Source of the DNA: Verrucomicrobiales bacterium
Lineage (GTDB): Bacteria > Verrucomicrobiota > Verrucomicrobiae > Limisphaerales > UBA1100
NCBI GenBank assembly: GCA_002721895.1
Contig: PBLV01000050.1
Coordinates: forward strand, 1-45,695
Direction of reading: 5' to 3'
DNA length: 45,695 bases
A program made the position numbers and the translations under genes. Shown here in pieces: positions 1,569 to 44,136 of this stretch. A model generated the notes under the pieces. The model saw nothing but the letters and a program-made list of their open reading frames with translations, made no database searches and was not told the origin of the DNA. The number at the start of each line of letters is the position of its first letter. Positions within the stretch are counted from its first letter, which is position 1.

Positions 1569-2111
1569 TCAATTTCGAGGAATTTTTCCCTTTTCTTGAG
1601 CCTTAGCCGCCAAGAGTGCTTCTTTTATGGCTGCACGTACCTTGGCCGGCGATTCTACTGACTCATGTGCCACCCTGGAAGTAGCTTCACCACCCAGGAG
1701 CATCATTTTATCCGTACCGATGCCTCCTATAACCGATAACTGTTGGGCGTTAATCTTCGCATCATCGTCCATAAGCTGGGAGAGCAAACGTTCCTGAGCC
1801 ATCTCGATAATTGTTGCCCACTTTGCGGCCTGTTCCTCCTTGGCTTTCTGGATTGTATGTCCATTGGCAAGCTTTACCGCGGTAACTGTGTTGCAGTTGC
1901 AGCGAAACTCACGGCAGATCTGGCGCACACTCATTCCTGAGGCTATGGCTTTGGCGATGGCTTCCTGTCTGTCAGGGCTTGTGCGTTCCAGAGTGTACTT
2001 ATCCTGATCACAGGTAATAACGCGCTCAGGGGCTTTCCTGCGCGATTTGGGGAGCACTACCGATCCTTGTTTTATCACGCATTTGATTTTCGCAAACGAT
2101 GACGGATCCAT
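1569..2111 (-). CDS. HTH domain protein of unknown function, upstream of the McrB-like gene
   Basis: A 180-residue protein starting at ATG 2111. Residues about 44-80 (SPDRQEAIAKAIASGMSVRQ, ICREFRCNCNTVTAVK) form a recombinase/terminase-like helix-turn-helix. The rest is helical and charged (KAKEEQAAKWATIIEMAQER, ending in a basic KAQEKGKIPRN tail). The N-terminus is rich in Lys and Arg. It could be a transcriptional regulator of the restriction operon or a phage-derived small-terminase-like protein; I cannot decide. It is the first gene inside the putative island end and precedes the McrB-like gene by 25 bp on the same strand. Confidence 0.6.
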   Translation of the reverse strand: MDPSSFAKIKCVIKQGSVVLPKSRRKAPERVITCDQDKYTLERTSPDRQEAIAKAIASGMSVRQICREFRCNCNTVTAVKLANGHTIQKAKEEQAAKWATIIEMAQERLLSQLMDDDAKINAQQLSVIGGIGTDKMMLLGGEATSRVAHESVESPAKVRAAIKEALLAAKAQEKGKIPRN

Positions 2112-2465
2112 CCAGACAAATCACAGGGTTTTACCATGAAGAGGAATCACCTTTTGTAAAAATCCCTGTAAGGGGAAAACCAATATTTAAAAGCGGGGCT
2201 GAGTTAGTTTGGTCACCCCCGCCCCCCACCATTTCCGAACAAATCCGAACAACTTTTCCTTCGCTTCTGTTCTTTTCTGTTCATCACCTTCACCGATGAT
2301 GGTTGTGACTATTGCTGGCCTAACATGCCGTGTATGTGTACGTTAGGTGTGTCAGAGTGAACTAAAACGAAAGTAGAAACAATGGACTCAAAAAATGAAC
2401 TAAAAGGTTCGAGTCCTCTCTCGCGTACCATCTCCCCCACGCTCTCCCTCTCCAGTTTATCCAGC
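2112..2465. other. Intergenic region at the island-chromosome junction
   Basis: No convincing gene is present. Apart from the tRNA 3'-end fragment at 2405-2430, I see a short run of C (around 2215-2228) and pyrimidine-rich tracts at 2250-2275 and 2431-2455. The small frames crossing this region have no recognisable protein features. Confidence 0.6.
2405..2430 (+). repeat. tRNA 3'-end fragment, probable attachment site (att) of an integrated element
   Basis: The stretch carries a TpsiC loop (GGTTCGAGTCC, 2406-2416), exactly seven acceptor-strand bases (CTCGCGT, 2420-2426), discriminator A (2427) and CCA (2428-2430). No matching 5' acceptor strand, D arm or anticodon arm precedes it, so this is only the 3' part of a tRNA gene. 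A73 and a 5' partner such as GCGCGAG would fit tRNA-Leu (inference). Integrases that use tRNA genes leave such a 3' duplicate at the far end of the element. The fragment is in plus orientation, so the element should lie to the left, where the restriction-like genes and the AT-rich sequence are. Confidence 0.6.
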
Positions 2466-3035
2466 CTATTTGGGCCGAACCGGGGTGAAGTTGGGAACAG
2501 CACGCAAAGGCGGCGCGGGCCGGGTTTGCGGAATGGCACGCTCGGCGGGAATGGCCGGCTCGATGGGCACGGCTTCAATAGCCTCAACCCCTTCGGCGGG
2601 GTCGGTATGCTCGCCGCCGGCAGCGCCATGGCCGTGGTCATGCCCATCCATGATGGGAACAAAGCTAAGATGGGTGCGCACTTGCGCTTTTCCGTTGAAG
2701 AAGAATTTGCGTTCCACGACCTTGAGCTGCCAAGTCTCGCCAGTCTGCGTGTCCAGCTTGATGACGACGGGCATAAGCTTGCCGCCTTGGGGAAGCTGGA
2801 TGCTCAAGACTTTGTAACGGCCGGGCATGGGGGGCATGAACATTTCGCCGGGGAAGCCGGGCTCGACCCAGCCTTCGTCGGGCATTTCCGGGTCCACCGG
2901 GAAGTCAATCCCAGGCGGCGGCGGGGCCTCGACTCCGGGAGCAGGCAGGATGCGGATGGGGCCTTCCTGCGCGTTGAGGTTGAGAGCCAGCAAGCTGGCG
3001 GCGGTGGTGAAAAGTAGCGCGCTCATCATTTTCAT
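2466..3035 (-). CDS. Secreted proline-rich hypothetical protein
   Basis: A 189-residue protein with an N-terminal signal peptide (MKMMSALLFTTAASLLALNL, cleavage likely near NAQ). It has a Pro-rich segment (APGVEAPPPPGIDFPVDPEM), a central 70-residue part that may be a small beta domain (GRYKVLSIQLPQGGKLMPVV), a His-rich stretch (DGHDHGHG) that might bind metal, and a Pro/Ala-rich tail. I do not recognise the family. It is the first gene to the right of the putative att site and points away from the next gene at 3418. Confidence 0.6.
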   Translation of the reverse strand: MKMMSALLFTTAASLLALNLNAQEGPIRILPAPGVEAPPPPGIDFPVDPEMPDEGWVEPGFPGEMFMPPMPGRYKVLSIQLPQGGKLMPVVIKLDTQTGETWQLKVVERKFFFNGKAQVRTHLSFVPIMDGHDHGHGAAGGEHTDPAEGVEAIEAVPIEPAIPAERAIPQTRPAPPLRAVPNFTPVRPK

Positions 3036-3037
3036 GA

Positions 3038-3085
3038 GCCGAGCCTAACAGAATATTCTTCGAGGTAAAGCCGAGCCTAACAGAA
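3038..3085. repeat. 16-bp direct repeat in the leader of the small secreted-protein gene
   Basis: GCCGAGCCTAACAGAA occurs at 3038-3053 and again at 3070-3085, with 16 bp between the copies. Both lie just upstream of the minus-strand start codon at 3035, so they may be a regulatory tandem site or a small local duplication. Confidence 0.6.
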
Positions 3086-3226
3086 AGCATGCCCCAAAAG
3101 GCACCTGTGTCTCTCAAGGTTACTGGTCTGCCCGGCGGTACTGGAAACCCTTTTTCCCGCAGTGAAAACCGCTTTACCGCTGCGCCCCTGAGGGGGCGGG
3201 CAGTGTCGGACGAGGGCGCGAGGCAT

Positions 3227-3348
3227 TTATTCACATTTAATTTCACGATGGCTTTCGGACACCGGCGAGAAAGGGCGTTTTTCTCAAAATTTCATCCACA
3301 GGCTGTGGGCAACACGGGGTTGACCACCTGTGGAAAAGCTGTGAATAT
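3227..3348. other. Cluster of DnaA-box-like 9-mers (candidate replication origin or DnaA-controlled region)
   Basis: The intergenic region between divergent genes holds TTATTCACA at 3227-3235 (exact match to the TTATNCACA consensus, plus strand). It also holds TCATCCACA at 3292-3300 (one mismatch, plus), TTTTCCACA at 3329-3337 (one mismatch, minus), ATATTCACA at 3340-3348 (one mismatch, minus), and a weaker TTGCCCACA at 3304-3312 (two mismatches, minus). Four lie within 57 bp. The sequence around 3224-3245 is locally AT-rich. No dnaA, dnaN or parAB gene is in the window, so the origin reading is only a candidate. The rest of 3036-3417 shows no gene. Confidence 0.4.
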
Positions 3349-3417
3349 CCTGCGAGCGGTGAATCGGCTTGAAGATTGGTTCGGGCTGGTGCGTCGGTTT
3401 GTAAAGCGAGGTCATGG

Positions 3418-5328
3418 GTGGTTGACGCCGGCACGTGCGCGGGCTGTTCCAAATTCCCCAAACCAAAGATCGTGGACGATTTCTCACAGAACAATGACAA
3501 CGAGCCCCGGCCCGTCGGGCTGGCGGTCATTCATGGTGTCTTGGGATTGGGCCTGTTGTTAGTGGGGTATTTCTTTCCCGTGCACTGGCATTTGCAACAC
3601 CCGGCGGTCGTAAAGCAGGCGGCCTTGCGCGATGCTGACTCAGCTGGTCAGGTTCCCTTTGACGAATCCGTCTTGGATTTCACCGAGCGGGTCATCTCGT
3701 ATGGCAGCAAAAATGGGGAGGTAAACCATTTTGCGCATCCCGCGCGCCTAAGTCTCATCGCGGCGAAACAAATCCATGGCGAGGATGAAAAAAAGGCGGA
3801 GATTCAGGCGCTCTGGGAGAAACTGCCTCCCCCTGCCGCCACGGTCACCGATTATCTTTTGACCAGTGCGGGCCGGGAAGCTTATCGGCGTGCTCTGGGT
3901 GCCAGCCCCTCTGATGAGGTTCTGTCCATCCTGAATGTCTGGGGGGAACGCCCGCAGGATACGAAAATCGACAAGAAAAACCGTCAACTGCTGCAAAACC
4001 ATTACCCCTCCATCCTGCTCACCGCTTGGCTACACCACAACCACAAGCTTGGCCACATGGGCAAGGACGTGGTGCAACTGTGCCAGAAGGGCAACGCGTG
4101 GGAGGCGCTCCATAAGTTTTTCAACGCCATGACAGCATTAGCCGACCGACTGGATGGCTACCAACTGGCCCGGCTGACCGACGTGATGCCGGACATGGAT
4201 ACGTTTGAAAAACTCTCGCAAATCAGCATGGTGCAAACGCTGCTGCCCCCGTTCCACAGCATCGGCAACAACGCCGACTTGCTGAACGAGGGCAAGGGGG
4301 AACACGTCATCACACCCGATGAGCTGAAAAAATTTTACCCGCCACTGGCTCGATATTTTGATCATATCAACACCACCAACAAGGTGCAGGGCATCAAGGA
4401 AATCACCCTGGAAGAATGGGTGCAGTTTGGGCGCATGCCTTTGGAAATCACCGACTTCCCCCTCACCTACACGGCCGTCACTTGGCCCGGCGAACCCGAA
4501 GCCACCCGGCAGGTGGTGGATTACCTGATGAAACATGGCCGGCGTGGTGACGCCGACTTGAAACGCGCCATGCGCCATGGCCATGGCGCTCTCCTGCACT
4601 TGGTGCAAAGCGAGGAGCGCATCAGCCCTCGCGGCAGCGAAGATGCCCTGTCCGCCATGGCAACCTTCAGCCTGAATCATCCCCGCTGGGCGGGATTTGT
4701 GCGCCTGCTGCTCATGGTGCTGGGCGGCGCGTTGCTGCTGCGCCTATTCACGCTTTTAAACCCAGTCACCTTGGCCAGCCCGGCGGATGTGGCCCTCTTC
4801 CGCTGGCGCCGCCGAGCAACGGCCTTTCTCATGCTCACCGTCCTAGTCATCCTCGGTGAGCCCATCCTTTTTCAACCTGCCGCCTCCTCGGAGTACGAGG
4901 TGGCCGTGAAGGTTCCTATCGCAGCCAACCCAAAAGACAACCCAAACAAGGATAACACCATGCTCGGAGCCACCGAAAGCAGCGACACGGCTGCCAACAT
5001 CACCATGATCGTCCTGTTCACCATCGCGCAGGTCATTGTGTACATGACCTGCCTGCGTCGGATGCGTGAAATCCGTGATGGCAGCCAGACACCCCAGCAA
5101 AAGCTCAAGCTGCTGGAGAACGAGGACAATCTCTTCGACCTCGGACTCTACATCGGCATTGCCGGCACCGCGCTGGGCCTTGGCCTCATCATGCTCGACC
5201 TTTTTACCAAGCCCTACGCCGCCTACGTGTCCAACATCCTGGGCATCGCCTGTGTTGCCGTGGTGAAAATTCATCACCTCCGCAACACCCGGCAGGAGCT
5301 CCTGCTGGAAGCCGGCGAGAATAAATAG
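3418..5328 (+). CDS. Multi-pass membrane protein of unknown function
   Basis: About 636 residues. There is no ATG near the N-terminus. I chose GTG 3418 because GAGG (3408-3411) sits six bases upstream; TTG 3376 and GTG 3472 are alternatives. A hydrophobic segment near residue 35-55 (AVIHGVLGLGLLLVGYFF) is followed by a roughly 370-residue soluble, probably periplasmic domain. The C-terminal third has hydrophobic segments near 426-447, 466-485, 527-547, 572-596 and 601-618. I recognise no catalytic motif. The coiled-coil gene begins 22 bp downstream, so the two are likely one operon and may form one envelope complex. Confidence 0.7.
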   Translation: MVDAGTCAGCSKFPKPKIVDDFSQNNDNEPRPVGLAVIHGVLGLGLLLVGYFFPVHWHLQHPAVVKQAALRDADSAGQVPFDESVLDFTERVISYGSKNGEVNHFAHPARLSLIAAKQIHGEDEKKAEIQALWEKLPPPAATVTDYLLTSAGREAYRRALGASPSDEVLSILNVWGERPQDTKIDKKNRQLLQNHYPSILLTAWLHHNHKLGHMGKDVVQLCQKGNAWEALHKFFNAMTALADRLDGYQLARLTDVMPDMDTFEKLSQISMVQTLLPPFHSIGNNADLLNEGKGEHVITPDELKKFYPPLARYFDHINTTNKVQGIKEITLEEWVQFGRMPLEITDFPLTYTAVTWPGEPEATRQVVDYLMKHGRRGDADLKRAMRHGHGALLHLVQSEERISPRGSEDALSAMATFSLNHPRWAGFVRLLLMVLGGALLLRLFTLLNPVTLASPADVALFRWRRRATAFLMLTVLVILGEPILFQPAASSEYEVAVKVPIAANPKDNPNKDNTMLGATESSDTAANITMIVLFTIAQVIVYMTCLRRMREIRDGSQTPQQKLKLLENEDNLFDLGLYIGIAGTALGLGLIMLDLFTKPYAAYVSNILGIACVAVVKIHHLRNTRQELLLEAGENK

Positions 5329-5350
5329 CCATTAAACACGTCCAATAACC

Positions 5351-7246
5351 ATGAATAAGACCCTGCTCCTGATTCTGCTGGATTTCCTTCTGCTGCACAT
5401 GATCCACGACTCCCCGTGGAACAAGGTGGAACAGGAAAACGCCCACCTCAGCGGGGGCACCGAAACCTACGCCAAGCACGCGCAGGAACTACAGTTGGTC
5501 ACCCTGCAGCTCAAGCAGGCCCAAGTCAGGGCCACCGAGCAGGAAGCCATGCTCAACTTCAGCCGCAAATCCGCCGCCGATCAGGCCCGCGGATTTGCCG
5601 AACTGACGGAGGAAAAGGAAAATCTTAAAAGCCAACTGGAAAATGCCAAGAACGCCCATAGCGAAACCGAGAAGGCCCGGCGCCAGGGAATCGCCGATGC
5701 CGCCGCGCAAGCAATTCTGTTGAAGGACACCATCGCCGCCAAGGAAAGGGTCATTAACCTCAAGAACCAAACGATCTCCGAAGCCGAAAAACAAGCTGCA
5801 ACTCGCGACCAGGCGATCAGCGTCCTGACCGATCAAGTCAATACCCTTGAAGGGCAAATTGGTGACCTGAAAAATGATTTCAGCACAAAAATCACCAATC
5901 TCGACAACACCAACAAGGGTCTCGTCCGCAAGAACGGCATACTGACCGCGGAAAATACAAACCTCAAAGATAATCTCAAGGACGTCGAAGATAATCTCAA
6001 GGACGTCGAAGATGATCTCATGGCTGAGAAGACTAAGGCCAAAAATGACCGTGATGCTGCCGCGAATAAAATTACCGGCCTCGAGAAAGAAATTACCGGC
6101 CTCGAGAAAGACAAGGACACTCAGACTAATCGCGCCAACCAACTCGAAAAGGACAAAGGCAGGCTTGTTAACGAGCGCGACAAAGCCCTAGAAGCCAAGA
6201 CCACTGCCGAAACTCAGGTCAAGGCGCTTAAAGTCAAGGTCGGGGAGGAACAAAAGCGCACCGAGGCCGCCCGCACCGAAGCGCAAAAACAGCAAACCCG
6301 CGCCGTCACCGCAGAGAAACAAGCCGTCGAATACCTCGCCCAAGCCAAGGCCGTGGCCGTGGAACGCGACACGGTAAAGGAGATTAATGATCGTCTCCAG
6401 ACTGACATCAAAAAGGTTGCCGAAAATACCGACGCCACCACCAAGGCCACCCTCAAGGAGGTCATCGCCCAGTCCAAGCGCATTCCGCAAAGCCCCAACA
6501 AGCTGTTCAACGAATATCTCGCCAACCGCGTGCCCGTGCAAATGCAGCTCAGCCGTAGCAAGCCCGGTATCGTCTACGTCAATGGCCAACCTCGCCAGGC
6601 CCCCCGCCAAGTCAACAAAACCCCTCAACCCATCTTTGTGCAGGGCCAGCGCTACCTCTACGCCATCATGCACACCGACCAGTCCCCCTTCTCCCTCCAG
6701 CCGCAGGGCTCCACCGCGTGGGAAAAGGCCGTCGGCATTTTCCGTCGCAACGGCAAGAGCATCCCCGTCCATTGGCTCGGGTTTTTAAAGAATGATCCCC
6801 GTGTCCTCGTGGCCCCCCTCCACAAGGACAGTGCCAAGAAGGAATTCCTGAATATCGGCAAAACCTACCCCCTCGCCAAGCGCCCGCAGGATTACTCCAA
6901 GGCCATTATCGTCCACAACGGCGAGGAATACGGCGAAGTGGATTTCAAGGTCGACCCCAAGCTCGGCAACTACGTGCTGATGGACAAGCCCTTCATGGGC
7001 GGTCTGTTCAGCAAACGCATGAACCCCAAGAAGGGTGACGTGGTCATCAGCCGCACCGGCGAACTGCTCGGCATCATGGTCAACGACAAGTACTGCGCCG
7101 TCATCCGCGAAAATGAACTCGACAAGGCCAATGAAAGCTTTGCCGCCTTTGTTGTCCTCAACGACGACGCCCAGGTCAAGGGCCTCAACAGCACCCTCAA
7201 GAAACTCGCCGGGCTCATCAAGGCCAAGCCCAGCGTGCTTCAGTAA
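5351..7246 (+). CDS. Membrane-anchored coiled-coil protein with a C-terminal protease-like beta domain
   Basis: 631 residues. A hydrophobic N-terminus (MNKTLLLILLDFLLLHMIHD) acts as signal or anchor. Residues about 30-370 are almost continuous coiled coil rich in Lys, Glu and Ala, including two exact seven-residue duplications (DNLKDVE and EITGLEK). Residues about 380-631 form a globular domain (IYVNGQ-like start, FVQGQRYLYAIMHTDQSPFS, RTGELLGIMVNDKYCAVI) that faintly recalls a trypsin-like fold but shows no GDSGG serine motif. Any enzymatic role is therefore unsupported. It follows the membrane-protein gene by 22 bp, which suggests a joint structural or scaffolding role in the envelope. Confidence 0.7.
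   Translation: MNKTLLLILLDFLLLHMIHDSPWNKVEQENAHLSGGTETYAKHAQELQLVTLQLKQAQVRATEQEAMLNFSRKSAADQARGFAELTEEKENLKSQLENAKNAHSETEKARRQGIADAAAQAILLKDTIAAKERVINLKNQTISEAEKQAATRDQAISVLTDQVNTLEGQIGDLKNDFSTKITNLDNTNKGLVRKNGILTAENTNLKDNLKDVEDNLKDVEDDLMAEKTKAKNDRDAAANKITGLEKEITGLEKDKDTQTNRANQLEKDKGRLVNERDKALEAKTTAETQVKALKVKVGEEQKRTEAARTEAQKQQTRAVTAEKQAVEYLAQAKAVAVERDTVKEINDRLQTDIKKVAENTDATTKATLKEVIAQSKRIPQSPNKLFNEYLANRVPVQMQLSRSKPGIVYVNGQPRQAPRQVNKTPQPIFVQGQRYLYAIMHTDQSPFSLQPQGSTAWEKAVGIFRRNGKSIPVHWLGFLKNDPRVLVAPLHKDSAKKEFLNIGKTYPLAKRPQDYSKAIIVHNGEEYGEVDFKVDPKLGNYVLMDKPFMGGLFSKRMNPKKGDVVISRTGELLGIMVNDKYCAVIRENELDKANESFAAFVVLNDDAQVKGLNSTLKKLAGLIKAKPSVLQ
5969..6010 (+). repeat. Exact 21-bp tandem duplication inside the coiled coil
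   Basis: Two identical 21-bp units (5969-5989 and 5990-6010) encode the heptad DNLKDVE twice, and a degenerate third unit follows. The unit length equals one coiled-coil heptad, so the duplication keeps the register. Confidence 0.85.
6070..6111 (+). repeat. Second exact 21-bp tandem duplication inside the coiled coil
   Basis: Units 6070-6090 and 6091-6111 are identical and encode ITGLEKE followed by ITGLEKD (reading across the unit ends). This is again one heptad per unit, as at 5969-6010 in the same gene. Confidence 0.85.
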
Positions 7247-27764: not shown

Positions 27765-30700
27765 ATGAAATACCTTCATGTGTTTTTCGTGCTTACTGTG
27801 TCCGCTGCCTTTCCTGCTTGGAGTGGGCCGGAGGCATTGAAGAATGTTGTTCAGTCGTTGGGGGTGAAGGGAGGGCTCGTGGTACATTTGGGGTGTGGGG
27901 ATGGAGAGTTGACTTTGTCGCTGCGGCCGAATTCGCGGTTTCAGGTGCATGGACTGGATGGGGACGCGGACAATGTGGCGAAGGCGCGGGCGGCAGTTCG
28001 GAAGGCGGGGGTGTATGGACCGGTGTCGATTGACCGACTAACGGGCTCGCGACTGCCTTATATTGACGGGATGGTGAATCTGGTGGTGGCGGAGAATCTC
28101 GGGAATGTGCCGAAAGCGGAGGTGATGCGGGTGTTGGCGCCAAAGGGGGTGGCGTACATTAAAGAAGGCGGAAAGTGGACGACGACGGTGAAGCCGCGCC
28201 CGAAGGATATCGATGACTGGACGCATTTCCTGCACGGGCCGGGCGGCAACGCGGTGGCGGCGGACAAGCGGGTGGGTCCGCCGCGTCATTTGCAGTGGCT
28301 GGGCAGTCCGCGCTGGAGTCGGCATCATGACCGGATGGCGAGCATGAGCGCGTTGGTGTCGGCGAACGGGCGAGTGTTTTACGTGATGGATGAGGGGTCG
28401 CGAGTGTCGATCCAGTTGCCGGCGAAGTGGATGTTGGTGGCGCGGGATGCGTTTAACGGGGTGGTGCTTTGGAAGAAACCGATGAAGAAGTGGCACAGCC
28501 ACTTGTGGCCTTTAAAAAGCGGCCCCACGCAATTAGCACGACGGTTGGTGGCGGTGGGCGACCGGGTTTACGTAACTCTGGGAGTGGATGCACCAGTGAG
28601 CGTGCTGGACGCGGCGACGGGGATGAAGATACACGACCTGCCGGGCAGTGAGCGGACGGAGGAGATCGTGGTGGAAGGCGACTCGGTGTTCGCGTTGGTG
28701 AGTGGCGAGGCGTGGGAGCTGAATTCATTTCTTCCGTTCCACAACGTGGGCGACCAGGCGCGCGTACGGCGAGACTTTGCGTGGAACGAAAAGCCGCGGC
28801 ACGTGAAGGTTTACGACTCGCGAACGGGCAAGAAATTCTGGGAACGTAAAACGGTGATCAGTCCCCAATCACTGACGGCGGATGCGCGCAATGTGTTTTA
28901 CCACGATGGCGAGAAGGTAGTGGCAGTGCACCGGTCGAGCGGCGACGTGGAATGGGAAAGCAAGCCGGTGAACCGGCCTAAGGCGGTGCGTTTTAATTTC
29001 GCGCCCAAGCTGGTGGTGACCGACGGGGTGGTGCTGTACGCGGGCGGTGACCGGACGATGCAGGCATTCGCGGCGGGCACGGGCAAAGTGATGTGGGAGG
29101 CGCCGCATGCGCGCGGCGGGTATCAGTCGCCGGAGGATTTGCTGGTGATGAAGGGGCTGGTGTGGAGCGCGCCGACGACAAGTGGGCGCGACAGTGGCGC
29201 CTTCACCGGGCGCGACTTGAAGACCGGCGAGGTGAAGGTGGAGTTTCCGCCCAACGTGGACACGTACTGGTTCCATCACCGCTGCTACATCGCCAAGGGC
29301 ACGGAGAATTTTCTGATGCCCTCACGCACGGGTATCGAGTTTGTGGACCCCGATAAAAAGGACTGGGATATCAACCATTGGGTGCGCGGCGGCTGCCTTT
29401 ATGGCGTGATGCCCGCCAACGGACTCACCTACGCGCCGCCGCACAACTGCGCATGTTATCCCGAGGCCAAGCTCTTCGGCTTCAACGCACTCGCGTCGTC
29501 CATTCCTTCGCGGGCGATTGGAAAGGTTGATGAAGCAGCACGGCTCGTAAAAGGCCCGGCGTATGGGCAGGCGACGGATTCGGGTGGCAACGGCGATTCC
29601 GACTGGCCCACGTACCGCCAAAACAACCGCCGCAGTGGGGCCTCGTCCACCATCATCCGCGGCGAACTGGCACCCGCGTGGTCCACCCACCTCGGCGGTC
29701 GGCTCAGTGCGGTAACGGAGGCGGAGAACAAGATTTACGTTTCGCGCATCGACGCGCACGAGGTAGTGGCGCTGCACGCGGTCACAGGTAAGGTGGTGTG
29801 GCGCTTTGCCACCGGTGGGCGCGTGGATTCGCCGCCGAGCATTCGCGATGGGCGCGCGTATTTTGGCTGTGCCGATGGCTGGGTGTACTGCGTGCGCGTG
29901 AGTGACGGTGCGTTGGCATGGCGGTTTCGCGCCGCGCCGGAGGACCGTAGATTGATGGCCTATGAACAACTCGAAAGCGTGTGGCCGGTGCACGGCAGCG
30001 TGTTGATTCAGGGCGACGTTGTGTATTTCGTAGCCGGCCGATCGAACTTTCTCGATGGCGGCATGCGGTGGTTTGCGCTGGACGCAATGACAGGCAAGAA
30101 ACACGTGGAGGTGGTGCTGGACGACAAGGAACCGGGCGAGGACAAGGACCTTCAGGAGCGCATCAAGATTTTGCAGATGCCCGTCGGGTTGCCGGACATT
30201 CTTTCCGCGGACGAAAAGTTCATTTACATGAAGTCGCAAAAGTTTGACCGGGAAGGCCAGCGCATCGACCTCGGGCCGCACACCGGCGACTTCGCCGGGC
30301 AGGGCAGCCAGCAAGGCGGCGACACGGCGCATCTCTTTTGTCCCACCGGCTTCCTCGACAGCACGTGGTTCCACCGCACCTACTGGGTGTACGGCCGCAG
30401 TTTCGCCGGCGGGCACGGGGGCTACTATCAGGCGGGCAAGTTCGCGCCTTCGGGTCGTATCATGGTGTTTGATCGCGATCGCGTCTACGGCTTCGGCCGC
30501 AAACCGGAGTATTATAAATGGACGACCATCCTCGAGCATCAACTCTTCGCCACCGACCGCCATCGCAAGGCACCGCCCGCACCGGTGGAGAATGCCCCGA
30601 GGCCCAAGGGCGCGATGGTCGACTTCGGCACGCCCGCCAGCCTCGACCCCAAGGGCAAGGCGCTCACCGTCACCGCGTGGACAATCAGCGAAAAGCCCAC

Positions 30701-31613
30701 CGGCATCGTGCTCGCCCACGGCGGGCCGCTCAATGGCTACGCGCTGCTGGTACACAAGGGCCAGCCCGTCTTCATGGTGCGCAGCAAGGAGAAACTCGCC
30801 GCCGTCCGTGGACAGGCGAAAATCACTGACAAGCTCGTGCATCTAGCCGGTGTCTTGACTCAAGACAACGAGTTGCGCCTCTACATGAACGGCCGGCAAG
30901 TCGCCAAGGGCGAAGGCCCCGGGCTGGTGGCAGGCACACCGGTGCAGGGCCTGCAAATTGGCGCGGATGATGGCAGCCCCGTGGGCCTGTACAAGACGCC
31001 GTTCTCATTCAAGGGCCTCATCGACGAAGCTCGCATCTATCATCGCGCCCTCACTGCCGAGGAAATCGCCAGCGCCGCCGACGATGGCCAGGTGGATGCC
31101 GCCGATCTTGTACTCAACGTCACATTCGACAAGGGCGATGCCAAGGACAGTTCCGGCAAGAATCATCACGGAAAATTTGCCGGACTAAAAACCGTCCCCA
31201 CAAAACTCGGCCTCGCGATGCATTTCCCCGGACGCAACTTTGGCCCCGGTGCAGGCAGCGTCGCCATCGAGCATCACTGGACCAAGGATCTGCCCATCCT
31301 CGTCCGCGCCATGGCGCTCGCCGGCGGCAGGCTTTATCTCATCGGGCCGCCCGACCTCGTCGACGAAGCCGCGACCTTTGAAAAGCTCACTAAGGGCGAT
31401 CCCGCTACGCTGAAACTCCTTGCCCAACAAGACGCCGCCTTGAACGGTGCCCAAGGCTCGCTGCTGCTCGTTGTCGATCCCAAGACCGGCAAACTCATCG
31501 AGAAACGCAAGCTAGAGTCACTCCCCACTTGGGACAGCCTTGCCGCAGCCCTCGGCCGGTTGTATTACGCCACCACCGACGGGCACGTGATCAGCCTGGG
31601 CGGCAACCCTTGA
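27765..31613 (+). CDS. Secreted protein: methyltransferase-like domain, PQQ-like beta-propeller, LamG
   Basis: 1282 residues with a signal peptide (MKYLHVFFVLTVSAAFPAWS). Residues about 25-140 look like a class I SAM-dependent methyltransferase fold (GGLVVHLGCGDGELT, VLAPKGVAYIKEGG), odd for an exported protein. A PQQ-like propeller covers about 165-950, with repeats such as VSVLDAATGMKIHD, VVALHAVTGKVVWRFATGGR and SDWPTYRQNNRRSG. A LamG/concanavalin-like domain lies at about 963-1101 (LTVTAWTISEKPTGIVLAHG, LIDEARIYHRALTAEEI). The protein is likely a periplasmic sugar- or quinone-related enzyme or binding protein of PVC bacteria. The start lies 111 bp from the divergent peroxiredoxin start, a region likely to hold both promoters. 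Confidence 0.82.
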   Translation: MKYLHVFFVLTVSAAFPAWSGPEALKNVVQSLGVKGGLVVHLGCGDGELTLSLRPNSRFQVHGLDGDADNVAKARAAVRKAGVYGPVSIDRLTGSRLPYIDGMVNLVVAENLGNVPKAEVMRVLAPKGVAYIKEGGKWTTTVKPRPKDIDDWTHFLHGPGGNAVAADKRVGPPRHLQWLGSPRWSRHHDRMASMSALVSANGRVFYVMDEGSRVSIQLPAKWMLVARDAFNGVVLWKKPMKKWHSHLWPLKSGPTQLARRLVAVGDRVYVTLGVDAPVSVLDAATGMKIHDLPGSERTEEIVVEGDSVFALVSGEAWELNSFLPFHNVGDQARVRRDFAWNEKPRHVKVYDSRTGKKFWERKTVISPQSLTADARNVFYHDGEKVVAVHRSSGDVEWESKPVNRPKAVRFNFAPKLVVTDGVVLYAGGDRTMQAFAAGTGKVMWEAPHARGGYQSPEDLLVMKGLVWSAPTTSGRDSGAFTGRDLKTGEVKVEFPPNVDTYWFHHRCYIAKGTENFLMPSRTGIEFVDPDKKDWDINHWVRGGCLYGVMPANGLTYAPPHNCACYPEAKLFGFNALASSIPSRAIGKVDEAARLVKGPAYGQATDSGGNGDSDWPTYRQNNRRSGASSTIIRGELAPAWSTHLGGRLSAVTEAENKIYVSRIDAHEVVALHAVTGKVVWRFATGGRVDSPPSIRDGRAYFGCADGWVYCVRVSDGALAWRFRAAPEDRRLMAYEQLESVWPVHGSVLIQGDVVYFVAGRSNFLDGGMRWFALDAMTGKKHVEVVLDDKEPGEDKDLQERIKILQMPVGLPDILSADEKFIYMKSQKFDREGQRIDLGPHTGDFAGQGSQQGGDTAHLFCPTGFLDSTWFHRTYWVYGRSFAGGHGGYYQAGKFAPSGRIMVFDRDRVYGFGRKPEYYKWTTILEHQLFATDRHRKAPPAPVENAPRPKGAMVDFGTPASLDPKGKALTVTAWTISEKPTGIVLAHGGPLNGYALLVHKGQPVFMVRSKEKLAAVRGQAKITDKLVHLAGVLTQDNELRLYMNGRQVAKGEGPGLVAGTPVQGLQIGADDGSPVGLYKTPFSFKGLIDEARIYHRALTAEEIASAADDGQVDAADLVLNVTFDKGDAKDSSGKNHHGKFAGLKTVPTKLGLAMHFPGRNFGPGAGSVAIEHHWTKDLPILVRAMALAGGRLYLIGPPDLVDEAATFEKLTKGDPATLKLLAQQDAALNGAQGSLLLVVDPKTGKLIEKRKLESLPTWDSLAAALGRLYYATTDGHVISLGGNP

Positions 31614-42919: not shown

Positions 42920-43597
42920 TCACGGCCGATTTTTTTCAGCAACGGAAATCAATTTCTTGAGGGCCAAGTCGATGGTCTTTTCGCCCGGATGCCCCACCCA
43001 CTTGTGGCGGATGATGCCTTGATGATCGATGACGTAAAAAGTCGGCGTCGCGGGATAGTTCCATTGACGGACAATCTCGCCCGAGTCGGCGAAGGATCGC
43101 CAGTTGAGTTTTTCCTTCACCATCACGGCCTTGAGCGTCTTCGGTTCGTGCCGGAACACATCCACGCCGATTAGCGCGAAGGGTTTGCCTTTCAGCTGAT
43201 TCACGAGCGACCGCTCATGTGGCCAGTGGGCCCGTCACGTGAGTCAGTACTCCATCCAGAAATACAGCAGCACAACCTTGCCGCGATAGTCGCTCAGCTT
43301 GAATGACCGGCCGTCTTGATCCCGCCCCTTAATATCCGGCGCCGCCTTGCCCACGGACAGATGCCGGATGCCGTGCAGTTCCATTTTGGCCTGTGCGGCG
43401 ACCGTGCCACCGCGCGGAGTTTTCACGTCATCATATTTCGCGGCTTGTTCAAACAGAGTTTCTATCTCCTTGGCCAGCCCGTCATTTTTGCGCTGTTTTA
43501 AATTCGGCAAATATAATTTTCCAAAAAACATTTGGTTGAATTTAGCCATCCCCGGACGGTCTGCCGCCAGCTGCACTGCACGCAGCCGGTCGTTTAA
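42920..43597 (-). CDS. C-terminal part of a TlpA-like thioredoxin-fold protein with predicted U-x-x-U (two Sec codons)
   Basis: Reading from 43597 (entered by a -1 shift from the gene upstream) to the stop at 42920 gives 225 codons broken only by TGA at 43246-43244 and 43237-43235. Around them the protein reads KVVLLYFWMEY-U-L-T-U-RAHWPHERSLVNQ. Cys homologues in PVC bacteria read FW...WCGPCRA...PHERSLV, so each TGA falls exactly on a Cys of CxxC. Upstream are SVGKAAPDIKGRDQDGRSFK and LSDYRGK; downstream are KGKPFALIGVDVFRHEPKTL, NYPATPTFYVIDHQGIIRHK and GEKTIDLALKKL, all typical of the redoxin/TlpA fold. In the joined 405-residue product the Sec residues would be 298 and 301. A SECIS-like hairpin follows. 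The predicted diselenide protein would act in extracytoplasmic thiol redox chemistry; the described UxxU family SelL is comparable, relation untested. Confidence 0.82.
43202..43219 (-). promoter_or_regulatory. Candidate bacterial SECIS hairpin serving both Sec codons
   Basis: In the mRNA, CAUGAGC pairs with GCUCGUG (seven pairs, one U-G) around the tetraloop GGUC. The loop begins 22 nt after the second UGA and 31 nt after the first, both within the roughly 16-37 nt window of bacterial SECIS elements. GGUC is also found in the loop of the Escherichia coli fdhF SECIS. A single hairpin within range of both codons matches what is known of bacterial SelL genes. Confidence 0.85.
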
Positions 43598-43602
43598 AAA
43601 CC
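43594..43602 (-). other. Candidate -1 frameshift site (GGT TTT TAA ACG)
   Basis: In the mRNA, five U precede AAA: GGU UUU UAA ACG. A P-site Phe tRNA on UUU can slip back one base onto UUU, after which UUA AAC GAC (Leu-Asn-Asp) is read, giving the expected protein continuation. It could equally be a one-base deletion in a homopolymer, natural or from sequencing. Confidence 0.5.
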
Positions 43603-44136
43603 GGCCAACGCCAGGCTAGCCAATCCCTGCATTTCGCGGTGGGAATTTTCCCGCAACACGGCACGCAGGAATTTTTCGAACTCCATTCGGCATCCATACC
43701 GCATCCGATCAATAACCGGCCCCAGCCCGTTGCTACGCAAATAATCGCGCTGCAACAGGGCCACCACCCTGCCCGGCGAGCCATCGGTGATCCCCACCGG
43801 AATGTTGGCATGATTCATCTCCCACGCGATGTGTGATGCCGAGTCCATGGACCCAATCGCTTGGATCGCCTGACGAATGGCCTTCAAGGCCACCGGATTT
43901 TCAGGATGCTTTTCAGCCAAGGCCAAAAATCGCGCCGGGAATTTCCCCAACCGCTCCACATGCAGCCGACGTTGGTCATCTGTTTTGGCCGTGCGAATAC
44001 CGCCGCTCGCCGTGCTGTACTGCTTTAACAGTGCGTTGTATTCCGCAGCCGGCTCCGCCACGGTGGCTGCCCCGCTGCTCGACACGATGAAAAGACTGAC
44101 GATTCCCGTCCCGATTAATCCAAAGTCAATCTTCAC
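43594..44136 (-). CDS. N-terminal part of the UxxU protein (zero frame, ends at a T-run followed by UAA)
   Basis: 180 residues from GTG 44136. It has a signal peptide (GLIGTGIVSLFIVSSSGAAT) and a helical domain (RQAIQAIGSMDSASHIAWEM, MEFEKFLRAVLRENSHREMQ) that in PVC redoxin proteins precedes the thioredoxin domain. The frame stops right after LASLALAGF, where homologues continue with FLNDRL-like sequence; that continuation is found in the -1 frame (LNDRLRAVQLAADRPGMAKF). The following part has no ATG nearby, only a GTG at 43576, so independent initiation is not convincing. Either a -1 frameshift joins the two or one T has been lost. Confidence 0.75.
   Translation of the reverse strand: MKIDFGLIGTGIVSLFIVSSSGAATVAEPAAEYNALLKQYSTASGGIRTAKTDDQRRLHVERLGKFPARFLALAEKHPENPVALKAIRQAIQAIGSMDSASHIAWEMNHANIPVGITDGSPGRVVALLQRDYLRSNGLGPVIDRMRYGCRMEFEKFLRAVLRENSHREMQGLASLALAGF

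Follow-up and report, generated by a model that had tools for sequence, protein, structure and literature searches.

The window, by which we mean the whole 45,695-nucleotide stretch of DNA analysed (contig PBLV01000050.1, from a Verrucomicrobiales bacterium), carries on its minus strand a gene predicted to encode an exported ResA/TlpA-like selenoprotein with a U-L-T-U active site, in which one hairpin likely serves both TGA codons; we put the probability of this reading at about 90%. A selenoprotein with UxxU and a single hairpin near both codons had been suggested in the earlier note on this DNA, and the suggestion is supported by related loci from two phyla, in which both the paired TGAs and the core of the hairpin are conserved.

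Frame and TGA pair of the window gene

The positions of the features are collected in Table 1. The earlier note had described two TGA codons, three codons apart, as the sole internal stops of the C-terminal frame, and this was borne out on the minus strand from 43615 to 42920, where re-reading gave 231 codons instead of the 225 reported. The residues around the pair read Y-U-L-T-U-R-A-H-W-P-H-E-R-S-L-V. The homologous site had been given as CGPC; the full-length Cys relatives within the family have CLPC or CLTC, and CGPC is present in other TlpA proteins (L042, L094) outside that group. An Rfam search of the window matched no family, and ARAGORN found no tRNA in it.

Table 1. Features of the double-TGA gene, in positions of the window
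Feature	Position	Strand	Remark
Double-TGA gene, N-terminal part	43594..44136	minus	start resembling a signal peptide, then most of a domain that is helical almost throughout; frame differs from that of the C-terminal part
Frame-break zone, one base, approximate	43597..43620	minus	relatives unbroken here, in a single frame
C-terminal frame with two internal TGA	42920..43615	minus	closes at TGA 42922-42920; ORF pieces 43244-43576 and 42920-43204
AhpC-TSA / ResA-TlpA thioredoxin-fold domain PF00578	43004..43354	minus	E 2e-21; ResA fold of the relative L007
TGA 1, predicted Sec at active-site position one	43244..43246	minus	TGA in 29/29 aligned genes
TGA 2, predicted Sec at active-site position two	43235..43237	minus	TGA in 29/29 aligned genes
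SECIS-like hairpin CATGAGC-GGTC-GCTCGTG	43202..43219	minus	stem with four-base loop forms, in isolated folding, in 6/6 TGA genes tested and 0/2 Cys genes
Hairpin core GAGCGGTCGCTCGT	43203..43216	minus	single exact match within the window

Because relatives such as P0001 pass the frame-break zone in a single frame, one base is taken to be missing from the window there. The break may be a true lesion or may have arisen during sequencing or assembly. The window may therefore hold a misread gene or a damaged member of a family that otherwise works. That the gene is a pseudogene making no protein is unlikely in our judgement: this explanation draws on the break and on other broken copies in the family (L028/L029 and L040), but the joined protein aligns with the unbroken P0001 at 90% identity over 73% of the query, a stretch that spans the break and extends to TGA 1, and the hairpin and the frame past the TGAs are intact in the window. 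Relatives with Cys codons and signs of decay had also been considered earlier; the nearest relatives carry TGA instead. The TGAs, being common to relatives, are hence not decay, and damage to the window copy would leave the claim for the family untouched.

Two in-frame TGAs would also be expected if TGA were an ordinary sense codon in this organism, for example for Trp. The probability of this is practically negligible, as TGA ends 11 of the 30 stop-to-stop frames of at least 250 codons in the window, including the neighbouring aminopeptidase P gene, and the two TGAs stand at positions of Cys, not Trp. We keep to the reading of both as Sec codons.

Elsewhere in the window, a 1282-aa frame at 27765-31613 combines an N-terminal methyltransferase domain with PQQ repeats and a laminin-G-like domain, and two adjacent frames of 650 aa and 631 aa at 3376-7246 gave no Pfam match at E 0.001.

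Relatives, codon conservation and the hairpin

At E ≤0.001 a protein search returned 1020 relatives, and the 120 best were compared by their protein tails. In 114 of these 120 the final residue directly precedes Sec 1, with tails such as ...VVLLYFWMEY; truncation at the first UGA by gene callers would keep the family hidden in databases. Three others are full-length Cys forms (P0011, P0013 and P0089), P0003 is one residue shorter, and P0093 ends otherwise. The last exception, P0070, ends ...YFWMEYCPT at the place of the second Sec codon and is a possible CxxU form. Separately, in P0106 and P0097 the truncated redox domain follows other N-terminal domains (beta-lactamase/CubicO and NHL beta-propeller). 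When the query was restricted to the sequence following the first active-site position, four matches were obtained, a single Cys form and three irregular gene calls; this search was not exhaustive because it missed the Cys form P0011.

Genomic loci were collected by a scan of one genome for each of 84,980 species. Two peptide patterns were used, and because both match upstream of the active site, neither the TGAs nor the hairpin were selected for. Among the 64 loci obtained, 23 (L042-L064) were more distant TlpA-type matches, mostly from Bacteroidota; four of these were used as tree outgroups and L042 as one CxxC site. The 41 PVC family loci comprise 32 with TGA-x-x-TGA, spread over 26 genomes, six with TGA-x-x-TGC (L034-L039), two with TGC-x-x-TGC (L001 and L006), and L040, which is without the active site. 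At L040 (3005-3393) there is either an active-site-spanning deletion in a family member or a chimeric contig. L028 and L029 represent the same UxxU region in two MAGs and share a frameshift soon after the hairpin.

The codon alignment comprised 29 genes, namely the window copy and 28 of the 32 UxxU loci; L028 and L029 as identical frameshifted copies, L033 at a contig end, and L041 with a short frame were left out, and these four also retain the hairpin core. Homologues were expected from the earlier note to have Cys or Sec at the two sites, and both columns are in fact TGA in 29/29 aligned genes, with Cys at both in L001 and L006. When 79 conserved four-fold, six-fold or Ile columns were inspected, CGG, TCG and CTC (each 29/29) were the only ones without synonymous change, and these three codons lie at the apex of the hairpin, where they make up its loop and stem. 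Chance is excluded for the TGA pair and hairpin because of the 29/29 TGA columns together with the invariant hairpin codons among the 79. The Glu codon ahead of CGG is GAG in 25 of the 29 genes, and in L004 it is replaced by GGG with the hairpin still folding.

The R-S-L residues encoded here are invariant across the 29 aligned genes, which would fit a core fixed by protein or codon constraint and not as a SECIS. This alternative is extremely unlikely, since synonymous changes occur in each of the remaining 31 conserved six-fold columns, and L001 and L006, which have Cys, show altered hairpin codons or neighbouring codons. Judged by this codon pattern, selection acts on the hairpin at the RNA level.

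The distance from TGA 2 to the start of the hairpin is 15 nt, and the loop begins 31 nt from TGA 1 and 22 nt from TGA 2, in agreement with the spacing described before. A nine-base heart of the core, CGGTCGCTC, is identical across all TGA-bearing genes compared. The energy of the window hairpin was -12.2 kcal/mol (z -1.73) in a 34-nt segment, and TGA genes folded alone gave z from -0.61 to -1.92; folding energy alone says little, because a different, competing fold is best in a 66-nt stretch of the window (z -0.30). The core was present in 28/28 UxxC sister sites (25 plus three added later, with three further Planctomycetota matches without a locus excluded) and in 0/5 CxxC sites (L001, L006, L091, L094 and the more distant L042).

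The 14-mer GAGCGGTCGCTCGT alone occurs at 22 places in 18 of 387 Verrucomicrobiota genomes. A correctly placed TGA stands beside it at three places, all in G007, the genome at the centre of the Verrucomicrobiota search, where a single UxxU gene is accompanied by two UxxC genes; a TAG is also present in one of these UxxC matches. Two places (L106 and L117) have only about 30 nt of upstream sequence and are unlike the family. The other 17 places are without such a TGA and look like chance occurrences. No viral contig scanned for the TGA-TGA-hairpin pattern gave a match.

The sister subfamily has UGPC, UPPC or UGGC (L034-L039 and the UxxC loci among L075-L098) with the identical hairpin core. It was found without a UxxU match in 19 of the 392 sampled Planctomycetota genomes and also occurs in Akkermansiaceae; at L087, two UxxC genes lie about 1 kb apart on a single strand.

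Of the 29 genomes in which SelD was matched, 20 also have an in-frame TGA within SelD. In the 18 of these 20 SelD genes that were compared (L121-L138), the TGA was a Sec TGA by pattern in 16, and 12 of the 18 had a GCGCARGU-type hairpin whose RGU loop lies about 32 nt past the TGA, the folds being judged by eye. This distance is close to the UGA1 spacing in the UxxU gene.

Such spacings bear on the possibility that UGA1 alone is decoded as Sec and UGA2 terminates or is misread, giving a short or mixed product. The spacing of UGA1 equals that of the UxxC sister and is near that of SelD in these genomes, UGA2 lies 9 nt closer to the hairpin, and gene callers report a short protein of about 297 aa. 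We nevertheless regard decoding of a single UGA as very unlikely. The frame past TGA 2 is open and conserved in 28 aligned loci, retains the cis-Pro loop and the C-terminal helix, and has a median dN/dS of 0.34, compared with 0.24 before the TGAs (298 of 406 pairs), values that are rough because dS is near saturation. In addition, position 2 is TGA in every aligned gene and is TGC jointly with position 1 in L001 and L006. Decoding of both UGAs as Sec remains the reading we prefer.

Occurrence of the family and of the Sec machinery

The Sec machinery, which the earlier note had proposed to look for, was surveyed in 34 genomes of relatives, nearly all of them MAGs, to which 35 of the 41 loci belong; L014, L016, L026, L028, L032 and L039 share record and isolate names with included loci. 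Matches over the cut-off were found for SelB in 30, SelA in 31 and SelD in 29 of the 34 genomes, and, among the 26 UxxU genomes, for SelA in 25, SelB in 23 and SelD in 24. With 90 candidates scored per genome, tRNA-Sec exceeded the gathering threshold in 26 of the 34 genomes, with 23 trusted at ≥54 bits. The two genomes with Cys at both sites differed: SelA, SelB, SelD and tRNA-Sec were all below the cut-off in G001 (CLPC), and all four parts were present in G006, the genome of the CLTC form L006. SelB was present in the UxxC genome G028, with neither SelA nor SelD, and in other genomes of the set one or two machinery matches were missing.

According to record names, several UxxU loci, up to three, share one MAG (L003, L014 and L028; L015 and L016; L024 and L026; L019 and L032).

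Among 392 Planctomycetota genomes, 27 had a relative at 1e-20, namely 25 with a TGA form (six UxxU and 19 UxxC only) and two with CxxC; this threshold missed G028, which was counted among the other 367. UxxU was thus found in 6 of the 392 genomes sampled, and the family is scattered among PVC bacteria, not universal. SelB exceeded the cut-off in 235 of the 392 genomes, that is, in 24 of the 25 TGA-form genomes (the lone one without SelB being G243) versus 211 of the 367 others (Fisher p 3e-5, with kinship ignored).

At one of the 41 loci, with flanks of up to 5 kb, sel genes were near the UxxU gene. On this contig of Paludisphaera soli (L025) the order is selB (48-1100), selA (2037-3395), tRNA-Sec (3448-3546, opposite strand), selD (3741-4661) and the UxxU gene (5001-6233). 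In G007, the genome of L007, which is the nearest tree neighbour of the window, selB, selA and a TGA-containing selD lie on one contig; no tRNA-Sec was found there among the 90 candidates scored. With thresholds of E 1e-15 and half coverage, none of the neighbouring genes recurred at as many as three of the 33 loci compared.

Fold, known systems and proposed role

The TlpA-like fold proposed in the earlier note is upheld by the PF00578 match and by a ResA-like model of L007. This model, built from 42 aligned sequences with Sec treated as Cys, had a mean pLDDT of 92.4, and its C-terminal part gave a TM-score of 0.92 to the target when compared with ResA 2h1b, with the cis-Pro loop retained and the C-terminal helix also present. 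Residues 29-259 of the model are almost entirely helical. No Pfam match was obtained for the N-terminal part of the window protein, the N-terminal domain of L025 had a weak HEAT match (E 0.0023, below cut-off), and the solved-structure matches, among those listed, covered the C-terminal part only. An exported PVC protein had been proposed as well; the family loci found are from PVC bacteria, and the signal-peptide-like start, judged by eye from the sequence, is consistent with export.

A tree of 64 C-terminal domains, with bootstrap unsettled, grouped 25 UxxC, three CxxC and one UxxU form (L032) together with support 95/89, leaving the other 29 UxxU forms outside. L001 and L006 fall within an eight-member group with six UxxU forms (support 100/97), and their nesting among UxxU forms points to a Sec-to-Cys change there.

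The protein shares with ResA/TlpA the fold over about 135 residues, the cis-Pro and PF00578, and differs from these Cys-x-x-Cys proteins by its predicted Sec-x-x-Sec and a helical N-terminal domain of about 230 residues. No NCBIfam model matched the window C-terminal part at cut-off: the ResA model NF002854 gave 59.8 bits against a cut-off of 170, and the TlpA cut-off was also missed. The WAxxUGC (NF041054) and TUGYCR (NF053656) families are also ResA-like or thioredoxin-fold selenoproteins, with other Sec motifs, and the window protein scored far below their cut-offs (32.4 of 300 bits and 24.2 of 100 bits, respectively).

SelL, from fish and other aquatic organisms, is a Prx-like protein with a diselenide in its redox motif, and the parts of PMC3316567 available describe it as having two Sec, two residues between them and one SECIS. 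As read from its sequence, the PVC gene has the same layout, with two TGAs, two residues between and one conserved hairpin. In the PVC gene, unlike SelL, the SECIS-like hairpin is inside the frame and there is an extra N-terminal helical domain. The comparison with SelL raised earlier found no counterpart in model matches: NF040769, the SelL-related model of NCBI, matched no UxxU gene of G007 or G023, where its matches are on other contigs, its matches in G002 included none with two TGAs, and it was not among the matches of the window protein at E 0.001.

The earlier note had presented the gene as a second thioredoxin-fold class with a diselenide. The UxxU thioredoxin-fold layout stands, but its novelty is partly anticipated, since UxxU proteins of this kind already appear in the portions seen of three papers. 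PMC2398784 reports UxxU in the Prx-like 2 family of a metagenome and mentions SelL, and tables in PMC9312934 and PMC13188914 contain a PF00578 "Prx-like thiol:disulfide oxidoreductase" with UxxC or UxxU. The gene is thus the Planctomycetes/Verrucomicrobia version of already known UxxU thioredoxin-fold selenoproteins. As far as the tables in those excerpts go, the PF00578 row has the same Pfam domain and UxxU among its motifs and is broad, whereas the PVC family is defined and has UxxU as its common form. The visible part of PMC13188914 also lists a row of TlpA/ResA-like selenoproteins with a UGC motif and further UxxU rows with two Sec, the metal-binding protein NF041115 and the FmdB family TIGR02605; these last two have different domains, and neither model was among the matches of the window protein. 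Planctomycetes and Verrucomicrobia terms were absent from the accessible text of PMC9312934 and PMC13188914, and that of PMC12013277 contained neither UxxU nor a PVC term. PMC4807772, in the section available, gives Sec genes and selenoprotein candidates for two Planctomycetes of an alga, and members of the family may be among the candidates. A literature search covering few subscription papers and no preprints returned no description of a PVC UxxU family.

We propose that SelB with Sec-tRNA would bind the GGUC-looped hairpin, so that UGA1 (loop 31 nt off) would be decoded before UGA2 (22 nt off). The putative signal peptide would carry the protein out of the cytoplasm, where it may act as a thiol/selenol-disulfide (or peroxide) oxidoreductase with a diselenide between both Sec residues in its oxidised state; the helical N-terminal domain may bind a partner or substrate. 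The UxxU family and its UxxC sister (UGPC, same hairpin) probably had a common Sec-containing ancestor, with the second active-site position occupied by Sec in the first lineage and by Cys in its sister.

The odds are slightly in favour of a wider account, in which an exported Planctomycetes/Verrucomicrobia family, nearly always with double Sec and hidden in databases, recodes two UGAs through a nine-base heart frozen across two phyla, and would perform an extracytoplasmic diselenide redox step that is seldom Cys-replaced. The gene offers a bacterial case of two Sec codons nine nucleotides apart with apparently one SECIS. The natural UxxC, UxxU and CxxC relatives, together with Paludisphaera soli JC670, in which the gene is beside the sel genes, allow comparison and make the benefit of the diselenide and the decoding of a second UGA so near the SECIS testable questions, in a scattered PVC redox family recorded mostly as protein fragments ending at the first UGA.
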